DNA of 64,000 bases, taken from contig NZ_BOON01000017.1 in assembly GCF_016863255.1 (NCBI RefSeq), forward strand, positions 124,001 through 188,000, given 5' to 3'. Under the pieces are notes generated by a model. That model did no database searches. It worked only from the letters and a program-made list of their open reading frames with translations, and was not told the DNA's origin. Each line of letters opens with the position of its first letter. Positions within the stretch are counted from its first letter, which is position 1. This DNA is from Planosporangium mesophilum (GTDB lineage Bacteria; Actinomycetota; Actinomycetes; Mycobacteriales; Micromonosporaceae). Made by a program: the position numbers and the translations under genes. Positions 3,527 to 63,600 of the stretch are shown piece by piece.

Positions 3527-4084
3527 ATGGGGCTGGACAACGTCGCGGTGCAGTGGCCGCGAACCGGCCGCTTCTACGACCCGGTGGCGCCGGCGGAGTT
3601 CGTCGACTTCGGCGATCTGATCGACAAGGTCCCGGACCTGCCGGGCCCCGCCGCGGCGCTCGCCGACCACATCGCCAAGACCGGAACGCTCCGGGCCACC
3701 GGCTACACCGAACTCGTCGATCTCCTACTCGGCCTCGGCGGCGTGCTCTACGCCACGGAGGCCGCGTCCGAGGACGAGGACCCGGTGATCGACCCCGACG
3801 GGTGCGCCTGGATCGCCGGCGGCCTGGAGCGGTTCGTCGACGGCCACCGCGAGCTGGGCGAGGAGGTCACCTTCGAGACCGTCGCCACGGTGCTGCGCGC
3901 CGCGCTGGAGGGTTCCCGCCTGGCCGACCAGCAGCTCAAGTGGCTGGACGGCCGGCTCGACGCGCTTCGCGACGATTCCGGCGAGCCGCCGCAGTGGAGC
4001 TTCACCCGTACCGAGCTGCAGATCCTCGCCGGCTTCTACCGTCGCTGCGCCGACCGCGGCTTCGCCGTCTACGCCGACTACTGA
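3527..4084 (+). CDS. Conserved hypothetical protein, 185 aa, acidic
   Basis: I do not recognise this family. The ATG start is well supported by GGGAGGTGA with 6 nt spacing. The protein is soluble-looking and acidic (many D and E), with no signal peptide, membrane segment or cysteine cluster. It is largely helical, and has a DPVIDPDGCAW stretch in the middle and a C-terminus ending FYRRCADRGFAVYADY. It faces gyrB divergently and converges on the membrane protein ending at 4093, leaving only 8 bp. Its composition matches its neighbours and there is no sign of recent transfer. The position between gyrB and recF hints at a lineage-specific insertion in a conserved locus. Confidence 0.8.
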   Translation: MGLDNVAVQWPRTGRFYDPVAPAEFVDFGDLIDKVPDLPGPAAALADHIAKTGTLRATGYTELVDLLLGLGGVLYATEAASEDEDPVIDPDGCAWIAGGLERFVDGHRELGEEVTFETVATVLRAALEGSRLADQQLKWLDGRLDALRDDSGEPPQWSFTRTELQILAGFYRRCADRGFAVYADY

Positions 4085-60724: not shown

Positions 60725-61933
60725 TCAGGCATCCACCGCGGGCTGGGAGCGGAGGTACCGGCCGAAATGCGGCACCGTGAACGCGACGGCGCCCCGCTCG
60801 CCGGAGTAGATGAGGCCCTTCTTGATGAGCGCGTCGCGAGCCGGTGAAAGGCTCGCCGGCTTGCGCCCCAGCGCCTTGGCGATCTCGGCGGTCGCCACCG
60901 CCGTGTCCATGTCGTCGGCCTCGGCCAGGGCCGCCATGGTGCGCATGTACTCGCGCTCGGCCGGCGTGGCCCGCTCGTACCGGGAGCCGAAGAAGCCGAC
61001 CGCCAGTTCGGCCTCCGCGTCCGGGGCGGCGACCCGCACGTCGCCGGGGGTGATCGGGTTACGGGGTGCGTGGTCCCAGGTCGCCTTGCCGTAGGCCTGC
61101 ACGAAGTACGGATACCCGCCGGAGGTCTCGTAGAGGGCATCGAGCGCCTTCGGCTCGTACTCGACCCCCTCGCGCGCGGCCGGCGCGCTCAGCGCCCGGT
61201 CGGCGGCGAGCCGGTCGAGCCGGTCGATCCGCTGGTACCTGAACAGCCGCTCGGAGTACGACTTGGAGGCCGACAGCACCGCAGGCAGGTGCGGGAGGCC
61301 GGCGCCGACCACGACCAGCGGCGCCCCGGTCTGCGACAGTTCGTGGCACGCGGCGCACAGCGCCGAGACGTCGCCGGCCGGTACGTCCTGCATCTCGTCG
61401 ATGAACAGCGCGATCCCGGTACCGACGTCGGTGGCGATGCCCGCCGCGTCGGTGAGCAGTTCGACCAGGTCGATCTCGATGTCACCGGAGTCCGCGCGGC
61501 CCCGGGCGGCCGGCACATCGATGCCGGGGTTCCACCGGTCGCGCAGCTTGGCGTTGTCCGGGACCGACCTCGCGCCGAACGCTCTCAGGACGCCGAGGAA
61601 CTCGTCGATGCGGTCCGGCGCGCGGTGGCGTGGCGCCAGCTCGCGGATCGCCATGTGCAGCGCGGCCGTGACCGGCCGGCGCAGCGACTGGTCGGGGCGC
61701 GCCTCGATCTTGCCGGTGCCCCAGAGTCGCCCGATCGCCTGCGACCGCAGCGTGTTGAGCAGGACGGTCTTGCCGACACCGCGCAGGCCGGTGAGGACGA
61801 GCGAGCGCTCCGGACGGCCCCGGGCGATCCGTTCGAGGACCACCTCGAACATCTCCAACTCGCGGTCGCGTCCGGCGAGCTCCGGTGGGCGCTGGCCGGC
61901 TCCGGGCGCGTACGGGTTGCGAACCGGATCCAC
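60725..61933 (-). CDS. AAA ATPase of the Orc1/Cdc6-like STAND-type family
   Basis: 402 residues from GTG 61933. NPYAPGAGQRPPELAGRDRELEMFEVVLERIARGRPERSLVLTGLRGVGKTVLLNTLRSQA shows the usual AAA_16-type entry, with Walker A GLRGVGKT. Walker B is ALFIDEMQDVP. LVVVGAGLPHLPAVLS (sensor I) and YSERLFRYQRIDRLD follow, then a winged helix (TAVATAEIAKALGRKPASLSPARDALIKKGLIYSGERGAVAF). This matches the actinobacterial family of about 400-residue ATPases annotated as Orc1-like or P-loop ATPases with C-terminal wHTH. The role is unknown. No Shine-Dalgarno is visible upstream, so a leaderless mRNA is possible. Confidence 0.9.
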   Translation of the reverse strand: MDPVRNPYAPGAGQRPPELAGRDRELEMFEVVLERIARGRPERSLVLTGLRGVGKTVLLNTLRSQAIGRLWGTGKIEARPDQSLRRPVTAALHMAIRELAPRHRAPDRIDEFLGVLRAFGARSVPDNAKLRDRWNPGIDVPAARGRADSGDIEIDLVELLTDAAGIATDVGTGIALFIDEMQDVPAGDVSALCAACHELSQTGAPLVVVGAGLPHLPAVLSASKSYSERLFRYQRIDRLDRLAADRALSAPAAREGVEYEPKALDALYETSGGYPYFVQAYGKATWDHAPRNPITPGDVRVAAPDAEAELAVGFFGSRYERATPAEREYMRTMAALAEADDMDTAVATAEIAKALGRKPASLSPARDALIKKGLIYSGERGAVAFTVPHFGRYLRSQPAVDA

Positions 61934-61952
61934 GATCGCACGGTATCGGCAC

Positions 61953-62034
61953 GTCTAGTGCGTCCGCTAGACATTGGTAGAAGTAACTCGAGCCCCTTCT
62001 CGTGCTTTCTAGGAAATTGACTAGATAGCTCTAG
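61953..62034 (-). promoter_or_regulatory. CTAG-rich control region upstream of the ATPase
   Basis: Five CTAG tetramers in 80 bp, at 61955, 61967, 62009, 62021 and 62031 (gaps 12, 42, 12 and 10). Two form inverted repeats: GTCTAG-N8-CTAGAC (61953-61972) and CTAGATAGCTCTAG (62021-62034). The region is also AT-rich for this genome. A repressor or activator binding CTAG-centred sites is an inference. Confidence 0.6.
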
Positions 62035-62040
62035 AAGGTG

Positions 62041-63162
62041 CTACTTCCGTTGCTTGAGGCAGAGCACGAAGTCCTTGGAGTCGGCGGGGCTGTCGAAGAA
62101 GTAGTTGTGCGTGTATCCCGGTACGCCGTCGCACCTGGCCTTGTCGATCGTCCCGGAGAAGCGCTTGACCACCTCGAACGTGTCCTTGGCGCAGGTGACC
62201 ACGCGCATCCGAGGTACCTCGTTGCTGCCGTCGTTGACCAGGCATTCACCGAGCTTCACGTCGCCGGCGTCGCCGCTCACGGCCTCGCCGTCGCCGACCA
62301 CCGCGTCCGGTGGTGGTACCGGCGTCGGCGAGTCGGCGGTGGGTGCCGGCCCCGCGTCCGTCGCGCCGGAGGCGGCGCGCCCGTCGGTGCCCTTCTGCCG
62401 CATCAGGTAGAGGCCGACGCCACCGGCGCCGAGCAGGAGTACGGCCAGCACCGCGACCACGGTGACCAGAGACCGCGACCGGCGGCGGCCCGGCTTCCCC
62501 GCCGGCTTCGCCACCGGTTTCACCGGCAGACTTGCCGGCAGCGCGGCCGGTGCGTGCGTCGTCGGCGGTGCCTGGGTCTGCGTGGCCGCCGGGTAGGGCT
62601 CATTCGGCGTCGTCGGATAGGCCTGCGGGCCGGCCGGGTACGTCGGCGCTCCAGCCGGGTACGTCGGCGCTCCAGCCGACGGGTAGGTCTGCGTGCCGGC
62701 CGGGTCCCAGGTCGTCTCCGGGGAACGGGAGTGCGGCTCCCAGGCGGGTGGCTCCCACGCCTGCGGCTCCCTCCGGGGCTGCTGCTGGTACGGGTCGTAC
62801 GAGGGCGGTTGGCCGTAGCCCGGCGACTGCTCGTGCCTCGGCTGCCCGTGGAACGCCGTGTGCCGCAGATACTCGGGCTGCTGCGGGTAGTCGGCCTGCC
62901 CGTACCGCGACGCCGACGGCGGGTACGCGGTCGGGGTCACGTACGGGGAGTCCTGCTCGTACGAGCCGCCGCCCGGCGCGGTCGGCCCCGACGTCGTGCC
63001 CCAGGCCTCGCCCGGCCCCCAGGGCTGGCCGTACGACGGGGCCTGCTGCCCGTACGACTCGCCGTTCTGCTCCTGGTACGGATCCCCCGGCTCCTGGCCG
63101 TACCGCGGATCCCATGGTTGGCCTGCGGGGTGGCGTCCGCCCGGCGGTCCGGACATCGACAT
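62041..63162 (-). CDS. Membrane protein with Pro/Tyr/Gln-rich tail and LppU-like external domain
   Basis: 373 residues from ATG 63162, behind GGGAGGAGCCCCC. The first about 210 residues are disordered and cytoplasmic, with Tyr/Pro/Gln/Gly repeats (YGQPPSYDPYQQQPRREP; GAPTYPAGAPTYPAGPQAYP). One membrane helix follows (SLVTVVAVLAVLLLGAGGVGLYLM) and then a short linker. The external domain of about 80 residues (VKLGECLVNDGSNEVPRMRVVTCAKDTFEVVKRFSGTIDKARCDGVPGYTHNYFFDSPADSKDFVLCLKQRK) has four cysteines and resembles the LppU/SCO3897-type domain of actinobacterial envelope proteins. The function is unknown. Confidence 0.82.
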   Translation of the reverse strand: MSMSGPPGGRHPAGQPWDPRYGQEPGDPYQEQNGESYGQQAPSYGQPWGPGEAWGTTSGPTAPGGGSYEQDSPYVTPTAYPPSASRYGQADYPQQPEYLRHTAFHGQPRHEQSPGYGQPPSYDPYQQQPRREPQAWEPPAWEPHSRSPETTWDPAGTQTYPSAGAPTYPAGAPTYPAGPQAYPTTPNEPYPAATQTQAPPTTHAPAALPASLPVKPVAKPAGKPGRRRSRSLVTVVAVLAVLLLGAGGVGLYLMRQKGTDGRAASGATDAGPAPTADSPTPVPPPDAVVGDGEAVSGDAGDVKLGECLVNDGSNEVPRMRVVTCAKDTFEVVKRFSGTIDKARCDGVPGYTHNYFFDSPADSKDFVLCLKQRK

Positions 63163-63600
63163 GGGGGCTCCTCCCGGTCGTGGCGGCGTCGGCACCCGCT
63201 CCGACCACATGGGCACGGCTGTTACCGGCCACCGTAGCGTGATCGCCTGATCGGCTCATCTCAGGAAAAACCGCGGCGCGCCCATGACCGGAACGTTACG
63301 TATGACCGGCAGGTTACGTCGGGAGAAGCGCCGTCGGGGGGCGCCGCACCCTCCGCAACCCGACCGGGCGACCCCGGGTCACCGGTCTGGGTGGCGCTGC
63401 TCGTCGTGGTCGGCGTGGCGGTGGTTTCCACGGCGCGCCGCCGGAAGCGGTTGTCCACAGTGTCATCCACCGAACCGTCCACCGAGCCGATCACGCATAA
63501 CTGCAGCTCAAAGCCGTCCTGACGGCCGTTTTCCACAGGCTGTACGGACCTTTTCCACAAGAGCCCACAGACCGCGCGGAGGGTGCGCTACGGTGCCCCG
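63163..63600. other. Divergent spacer with DnaA-box-like cluster
   Basis: 438 bp without a gene. TTGTCCACA (63451-63459) is a perfect DnaA box. TTTTCCACA occurs at 63529-63537 and 63551-63559, and weaker TCATCCACC and CCGTCCACC lie between. It is about 53 kb from oriC. Start-proximal parts carry the promoters of the LppU-like gene and of the prepilin peptidase. Confidence 0.6.

Follow-up and report, generated by a model that had tools for sequence, protein, structure and literature searches.

Autorepressors with phased or palindromic multisite operators place the operator over the −35/−10 region and use short half-sites at cooperative spacing, and STAND ATPases carry additional sensor repeats at the C terminus. 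MalT is described as a STAND transcription factor (PMC10427625). Archaeal Orc1/Cdc6 proteins combine an AAA+ core with a C-terminal winged helix, their genes are paired with their own boxes, and individual origins of Haloarcula hispanica are reported to depend on co-located cdc6 genes (PMC3936714). The tetranucleotide CTAG is reported to be rare in Salmonella, where conserved CTAG-containing sequences mark intergenic elements (PMC5337935).

The locus analyzed here, a CTAG cluster in front of an ATPase gene, resembles each of these systems in part. As in Orc1/Cdc6, an AAA+ core is followed by a C-terminal winged helix and the gene is paired with boxes of its own; unlike Orc1/Cdc6, the ATPase is bacterial and scores far below the cut-off of that family, and its boxes lie over a promoter, at a fixed distance from the −10 box, with no sign of an origin. 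The archaeal-type STAND ATPases of Pyrococcus abyssi (2qen) and Sulfolobus (2fna) give the best structural alignments, and MalT is a precedent for the control of transcription that the ATPase would exert, whereas the ATPase lacks the C-terminal sensor repeats and seems to have its own gene as its main target. The putative operator shares with the classic autorepressors its place over the −35/−10 region, its short half-sites, and its cooperative spacing, but the presumed binder is an Orc1-like AAA+ ATPase, and the half-site varies from copy to copy while a layout of 10 bp, dyad, and 10 bp stays constant. The Salmonella CTAG sequences apparently form no fixed-spacing array before an ATPase (PMC5337935). 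Autoregulatory operators as such are known; what would be new is that an Orc1/STAND-like ATPase apparently reads this one, and that the letters drift while the geometry is constant. A search of open-licence papers retrieved, among the matches listed, no description of this ATPase or operator, which is weak evidence of absence.

The features of the locus are given below, with positions counted along the window, that is, the whole stretch of 64,000 nucleotides that was analyzed.

60725..61933, minus strand: gene of an AAA_16 (Orc1/STAND-like) ATPase of 402 amino acids, with a GTG start (Pfam AAA_16, E value of 5.1e-21)
61940..61945, minus strand: −10-like TACCGT (TANNNT), 6 nt before the GTG, probable leaderless promoter
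61954..61971, minus strand: putative proximal operator TCTAG-N8-CTAGA, a conserved pair at −38 to −21, over the −35 region
61991..62042, no strand assigned: computed imperfect inverted repeat that encloses the distal array and overlaps the stop codon of the upstream gene
62009..62034, minus strand: putative distal operator array of three CTAG with spacings of 10 and 12, from site positions and conservation
62041..63216, minus strand: upstream gene of an LppU/SCO3897-family protein, on the same strand as the ATPase (NCBIfam NF049863, E value of 3.6e-13)

The preliminary description had read this region as a multisite operator made of five CTAG copies and two inverted repeats. A position count in the window bears out both the copies and their spacings of 12, 42, 12, and 10 bp, with CTAG starting at 61955, 61967, 62009, 62021, and 62031; counted from the GTG start of the minus-strand ATPase gene, and hence in the opposite order, the sites are at −101, −91, −79, −37, and −25. 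The first inverted repeat, read from the sequence, is the exact TCTAG-N8-CTAGA at 61954 to 61971, and the second has 22-nt arms (61991 to 62012 and 62021 to 62042) that are 82% complementary. CTAG is indeed scarce, with 20 copies in the window versus 87.2 expected from dinucleotide shuffles, and the 15 copies outside the cluster are dispersed, the nearest pair being 107 bp apart. The TACCGT begins 13 bp past the start of the second proximal CTAG, and a scan of the locus for sigma-70 TTGACA/TATAAT boxes gave no match. By eye, many promoters of the family are preceded by similar C-terminal coding ends.

The ATPase matches the AAA_16 profile (PF13191) with 76.3 bits, above the curated cut-off of 32.6, and its Walker A motif GLRGVGKT (residues 49 to 56) and D179-E180 are invariant across 42 aligned homologues. 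The predicted structure (pLDDT of 91.5, pTM of 0.89) is composed of an AAA+ core, a helical lid, and a C-terminal winged helix (approximately residues 324 to 385), and this model, like the alignment with 1w5t, presents the domain order of the Orc1/Cdc6 type. The top Foldseek match by E value is Orc1 (2v1u, 5.9e-10). The best structural alignments are those with the archaeal ATPases 2qen (Z of 24.3, RMSD of 4.3, 323 residues aligned) and 2fna (Z of 22.1, RMSD of 4.0, 319 aligned), followed by Aeropyrum Orc2 (1w5t, Z of 20.5, RMSD of 5.9, 341 aligned) and, at lower rank, by NLR/apoptosome STAND chains (Z of approximately 15 to 19), MalT (8bob, Z of 15.7, RMSD of 12.5), and TnsC. The alignments with 2qen, 2fna, and the NLR/apoptosome chains show a STAND-type NOD ATPase fold with a winged helix; the modelled chain of 402 residues stops right past this domain, leaving no sensor repeats. 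The winged helix modelled alone (pLDDT of 87.8) is weakly similar to ArsR/MarR/MntR-type domains (best E value of 5.9e-3) and gave no Foldseek match at an E value of ≤0.001, so that this part of the preliminary description is backed by the model and only weakly by the fold matches of the isolated domain. A sequence search of the PDB with the ATPase returned no match under an E value of 0.19, and in PHROGs the protein matches a family without assigned function (E value of 3e-14). A defence-system identity was rejected, as PADLOC gave weak P-loop matches only (best E value of 0.0017). Four plasmid matches (H82, H83, H85, and H86) are partial homologues that resemble the C-terminal part of the ATPase family, and two of them are annotated as MarR-family regulators.

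An ATPase match at an E value of ≤0.001 was found in 74 of the 101 genomes searched (the own genome and its relatives), and 40 of 61 genomes of the same family carry an orthologue (hand tally). Loss of the CTAGs in orthologous promoters had been set beforehand as the observation that would speak against an operator; the comparison of these promoters shows instead that sites and spacings are conserved, which is strong support for a multisite operator. In the 150 bp upstream of the 40 family orthologues, CTAG reaches 28.0 per kb versus 0.386 per kb elsewhere in these loci (72-fold), with a mean of 4.2 per promoter, at least one copy in all 40, and at least two in 37. Successive spacings of up to 22 bp are 10 or 12 bp in 93 of 98 cases (38 and 55, respectively), the other five being 18 (one), 20 (three), and 22 (one). 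Thirty of the 40 promoters have the pair CTAG-N8-CTAG at most 45 bp from the start codon, always with T and A as flanks, and the exact TCTAG-N8-CTAGA is absent from 3 of the 40. In 36 family promoters, a TANNNT follows the last CTAG at a start-to-start distance of 13 bp; the remaining four comprise one that lacks a nearby CTAG and three that lack a TANNNT in range. The conserved sites of the 40 family promoters thus hold a fixed place in the promoter, defined by this +13 offset, as an autoregulatory operator would.

Beyond the family, the +13 TANNNT recurs at the order level (19 of 23 promoters) and among named orthologues (48 of 80 promoters). The latter are the best 80 of 570 in the genome collection, with 72 to 87% identity, and come from Micromonospora, Actinoplanes, Dactylosporangium, Phytohabitans, Salinispora, Jiangella, Nonomuraea, Actinomadura, Blastococcus, Rhodococcus, Nocardia, Amycolatopsis, and others. 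Among these 80, the promoters off the rule comprise 21 without CTAG within 75 bp, 10 without TANNNT in range, and one with the box at +10. By eye, many of the 21 show TCTAC/CTATA look-alikes at the same places, and promoters of the Streptosporangium and Actinomadura types carry TCTAC/CTATA variants with spacings unchanged. In Rhodococcus, the CTAG pair sits about 20 bp further upstream. The distances between distal and proximal arrays vary without clear periodicity (by eye), so a fixed DNA loop joining the two arrays is unsupported.

A Shine-Dalgarno-like word occurs in the last 18 nt of just 1 of the 40 family promoters. A TANNNT that precedes the start codon by about 12 bp is described as a sign of leaderless bacterial genes, which are reported to be frequent in Actinobacteria (PMC3160421), and the ATPase mRNA is probably leaderless and transcribed from the TANNNT promoter.

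The reading favored here, with a probability of roughly 0.7, is that the CTAG cluster serves as an operator for the gene of the ATPase itself and that the ATPase autoregulates by oligomerizing on the helically phased half-sites, probably as a repressor. It builds on what can be read directly from the DNA, namely, the sites with their spacings and conservation, the distance between operator and −10 box, a target that is nearly the only one per genome, and letters that change with the protein. The motif tracks the gene, which agrees with the autoregulation proposed in the preliminary description. We infer that the ATPase is the binder and that its C-terminal winged helix would recognize a short half-site, TCTAG in this lineage, while the AAA+ core would let several subunits assemble side by side; such an assembly would place the half-sites one helical turn (10 bp) apart or 12 bp apart across a dyad. 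The probable promoter is leaderless, its −35 region lies under the proximal pair, and its −10 box is fixed 13 bp from that pair; binding would therefore most likely block RNA polymerase, and autorepression is the most likely mode of action rather than activation. This repression would probably be gated by the ATP/ADP state of the protein. The distal array may add cooperative binding and, in some genera, double as an RNA hairpin behind the upstream gene.

The alternative that survives best, and is still improbable, is that the array is bound by another, unlinked regulator, which uses it as an operator to control the ATPase gene. The link between ATPase and DNA comes from comparing sequences, regulators with a single target exist, and other factors may act on these promoters: a GACAC box, reported as the WhiA-binding motif (PMC3781837), is found no more than 100 bp upstream in 28 of the 40 family promoters, 16 of the 23 order-level ones, and 64 of the 80 named ones (best 80 of 570). 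This box is separate from the CTAG array and sits mostly near −66; it is absent from the promoter in the window.

The distribution of the motif argues against such an unlinked regulator. The exact TCTAG-N8-CTAGA has two sites in the 6.62-Mb genome, both in the ATPase promoter, whereas a search allowing up to two mismatches returns 678 places and is uninformative. The wider regulon suggested in the preliminary description did not materialize, as this one exact motif, searched across the own genome, marks no target beyond the ATPase promoter. The exact motif is present in 107 of 150 family genomes. In the 61 of these 150 covered by the co-occurrence tally, it is found anywhere in 39 of 40 genomes with an orthologue versus 4 of 21 without (Fisher P of 1.8e-10; hand tally), so that the motif mostly goes when the ATPase goes. 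Within the 40 orthologue-bearing genomes, 57 of 62 sites lie within 300 bp upstream of the ATPase (totals tallied by hand), and these 57 are spread over 37 genomes. Two genomes, G037 and G060, have a motif site and no orthologue.

Fifteen listed sites in 14 regions, including two regions from G012 and G040, were read in context. One region (L255) is the ATPase promoter itself, the site in L126 is a TetR-operator-like palindrome, and those in L127 and L253 are long perfect palindromes of the terminator type. Regions L245 to L247 share one TCTAG-N8-CTAGA site, located between genes unrelated to the ATPase in three genomes of one genus (G009, G124, and G137), and this site is a possible second target in that genus. 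Because L248 carries five CTAG in about 65 bp at another gene, and L254 carries four at spacings of 9, 12, and 9 in front of a gene that is TetR-like by eye, CTAG-rich arrays are not exclusive to this ATPase, which fits a separate regulator. The other regions read in context have no evident link to the ATPase.

Distant homologues provide a further comparison. They occur in 112 plasmid records, mostly at approximately 25 to 45% identity (two chromosome-sized records reach 74 to 76% and the others stay below 60%), and at 36 loci on prophage-like contigs, mostly at 27 to 43%. From the plasmid records, 20 diverse copies were sampled. In the 19 with nearby annotation the neighbors mostly differ; one gene pair is common to two Clavibacter copies, and two other copies lie near mobF. 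Directly upstream of many distant copies are repeats with the geometry of the window (10 bp, dyad, 10 bp) in other letters. Eleven prophage copies together hold 40 exact 4-mer direct repeats at a lag of 10, versus 3.9 in shuffles (maximum of 12 in 200), and the same lag is again the top direct lag in 16 other distant copies, 12 viral and 4 chromosomal (122 versus 44, maximum of 76). Some copies were left out of at least one promoter count, namely, the near-identical prophage copies L215, L216, L231 to L236, and L238, as well as L219 (no upstream DNA), L244 (a fragment), L220, and L225.

The layout was also scored without regard to letters, from four 6-mers of which two are direct and 10 bp apart and two, across a dyad, inverted and 10 bp apart (maximum of 24, threshold of 20). 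Scores at or above the threshold occur in 11 of the 20 plasmid promoters (control windows, 1.0% of 300) and in 5 of the 11 prophage promoters (control windows, 1.2% of 165), and in both sets 10 bp gives the highest total among gaps of 7 to 13. For a later set, 296 genomes across the phylum were searched with a prophage homologue; 24 of them yielded 25 matches, of which 22 were scored after the own copy and two genomes seen before had been left out. With start codons assumed rather than annotated, and with some entries being chromosomal orthologues of a kind already sampled, 10 of these 22 reach the same threshold versus 16 of 440 control windows, and four of the 10 (L281, L290, L294, and L299) look chance-like by eye in GC-rich sequence. 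The layout total of the later set is 414 versus a shuffle mean of 373.4 (SD of 5.1, maximum of 386 in 200), with 10 bp the best among gaps of 6 to 14. Below the threshold are 9 of 20 plasmid, 6 of 11 prophage, and 12 of 22 later-set homologues. Among the direct lags of the later set, 13 bp is highest (64), by eye from one tandem repeat, and 10 bp is next (47). This tandem 13-bp repeat stands immediately before the distant homologue in L296.

The layout thus recurs in Actinomycetota and Pseudomonadota amid mostly different neighbors, which again speaks against an unlinked regulator, and the letters change with the copy: TCTAG in the chromosomal type, CTTATC in prophages, CTGTAG on a Cellulosimicrobium plasmid, and TATAGC on a Pandoraea plasmid. 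Within Rhodococcus, the plasmid half-sites are TTATGG and GTATGG while the contig-borne orthologues have TCTAG, a difference not expected from a host factor common to both. The specificity seems to go with the copy of the ATPase. Across 20 homologues, half-sites are more alike where winged-helix identity is higher (r of 0.49, 0 of 2,000 permutations) and also where AAA-domain identity is higher (r of 0.46). Once AAA-domain identity is given, the recognition helix shows no significant covariation of its own in these 20 (partial r of 0.13, 238 of 2,000), so the winged-helix correlation may reflect relatedness alone. The matching arrays often present before homologues on chromosomes, plasmids, and prophages suggest that each ATPase controls its own gene, and the occurrence of the ATPase in all three settings suggests a self-contained, self-limiting module.

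The pairing of an Orc1/Cdc6-type initiator gene with recognition boxes, as in archaea, raises the possibility of a replication-origin-like module. The Orc/Cdc6-like fold (2v1u and 1w5t), the homologues in plasmid records, and the dependence of the Haloarcula origins on co-located cdc6 genes reported in PMC3936714 are in line with this, and the module is nevertheless very unlikely. The Orc1/Cdc6 family profile TIGR02928 gives 18.3 bits and its cut-off of 181.3 is not reached, no very AT-rich stretch lies upstream in 30 family loci (40-bp means of 32 to 46% AT), the array keeps a fixed distance from a −10 box, and at least one of the plasmids (L257) has a separate annotated replication initiator nearby.

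Highly improbable, too, is that the array acts mainly as RNA, as a hairpin terminator behind the upstream LppU-like gene. Its best evidence comes from the distal palindrome of four CTAG spaced 10, 12, and 10 bp, of which relatives hold 23 distinct sequences. At their five variable stem positions, 113 of 115 cells are complementary, where shuffles give 87.5 (maximum of 96 in 1,000; the shuffle ignores relatedness). This suggests that a hairpin has been selected for, possibly as a terminator that follows the upstream gene, and one such palindrome folds at −35.5 kcal/mol. The inverted repeat of the window is weaker as RNA (−20.9 kcal/mol, z of −3.0), and the terminator scan of the locus found no terminator-like site. 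Moreover, promoters without the hairpin exist, and a hairpin leaves the proximal pair, the invariant CTAG letters, and the 13-bp distance to the −10 box unexplained.

Autoregulation by the ATPase would give a concrete DNA target to an apparently uncharacterized family, which is conserved in many actinomycetes and present in about a hundred plasmid records. With natural protein-operator pairs that differ in letters and agree in geometry, simple bacteria become a place to test how Orc1-like proteins recognize DNA and how AAA+ proteins assemble on it, and the pairs offer a handle on what these ATPases do. A tentative extension, with a modest chance of being right, is that of a widespread, mobile bacterial family of Orc1/STAND-like ATPases whose private phased arrays drift in their letters with the protein and keep the 10-dyad-10 geometry, so that each AAA+ assembly would be confined to a single place and the copies on chromosomes, plasmids, and prophages would behave as mutually orthogonal, self-limiting modules for copy sensing or incompatibility.

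That the copies cluster by chance, or at a mutational hot spot of a genome poor in CTAG, can be dismissed: further CTAG clusters do exist in the genome, but five copies within 80 bp arose in 0 of 20,000 uniform random placements of 20 sites, and conservation and spacing hold over 40 orthologues. The preliminary description had seen no similar CTAG density elsewhere, which is correct for the window and fails for the whole genome, where three mobile-element-like loci and a few others are CTAG dense with spacings unlike those of the cluster. The three loci (L002, L047, and L048 on contigs C3, C52, and C82) carry an intergenic element with 7 to 8 CTAG per approximately 150 bp at spacings of 6, 16, 6, 12, 31, and 7. 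By eye, the open reading frames of these loci resemble FtsK/TraB-type, primase-polymerase, or integrase genes, and the element is possibly a transfer or replication locus. Another such spot (L052, contig C36, approximately 3570 to 3643) consists of tandem units of 17 to 18 bp with a CTAG in each, in a layout unrelated to the operator.
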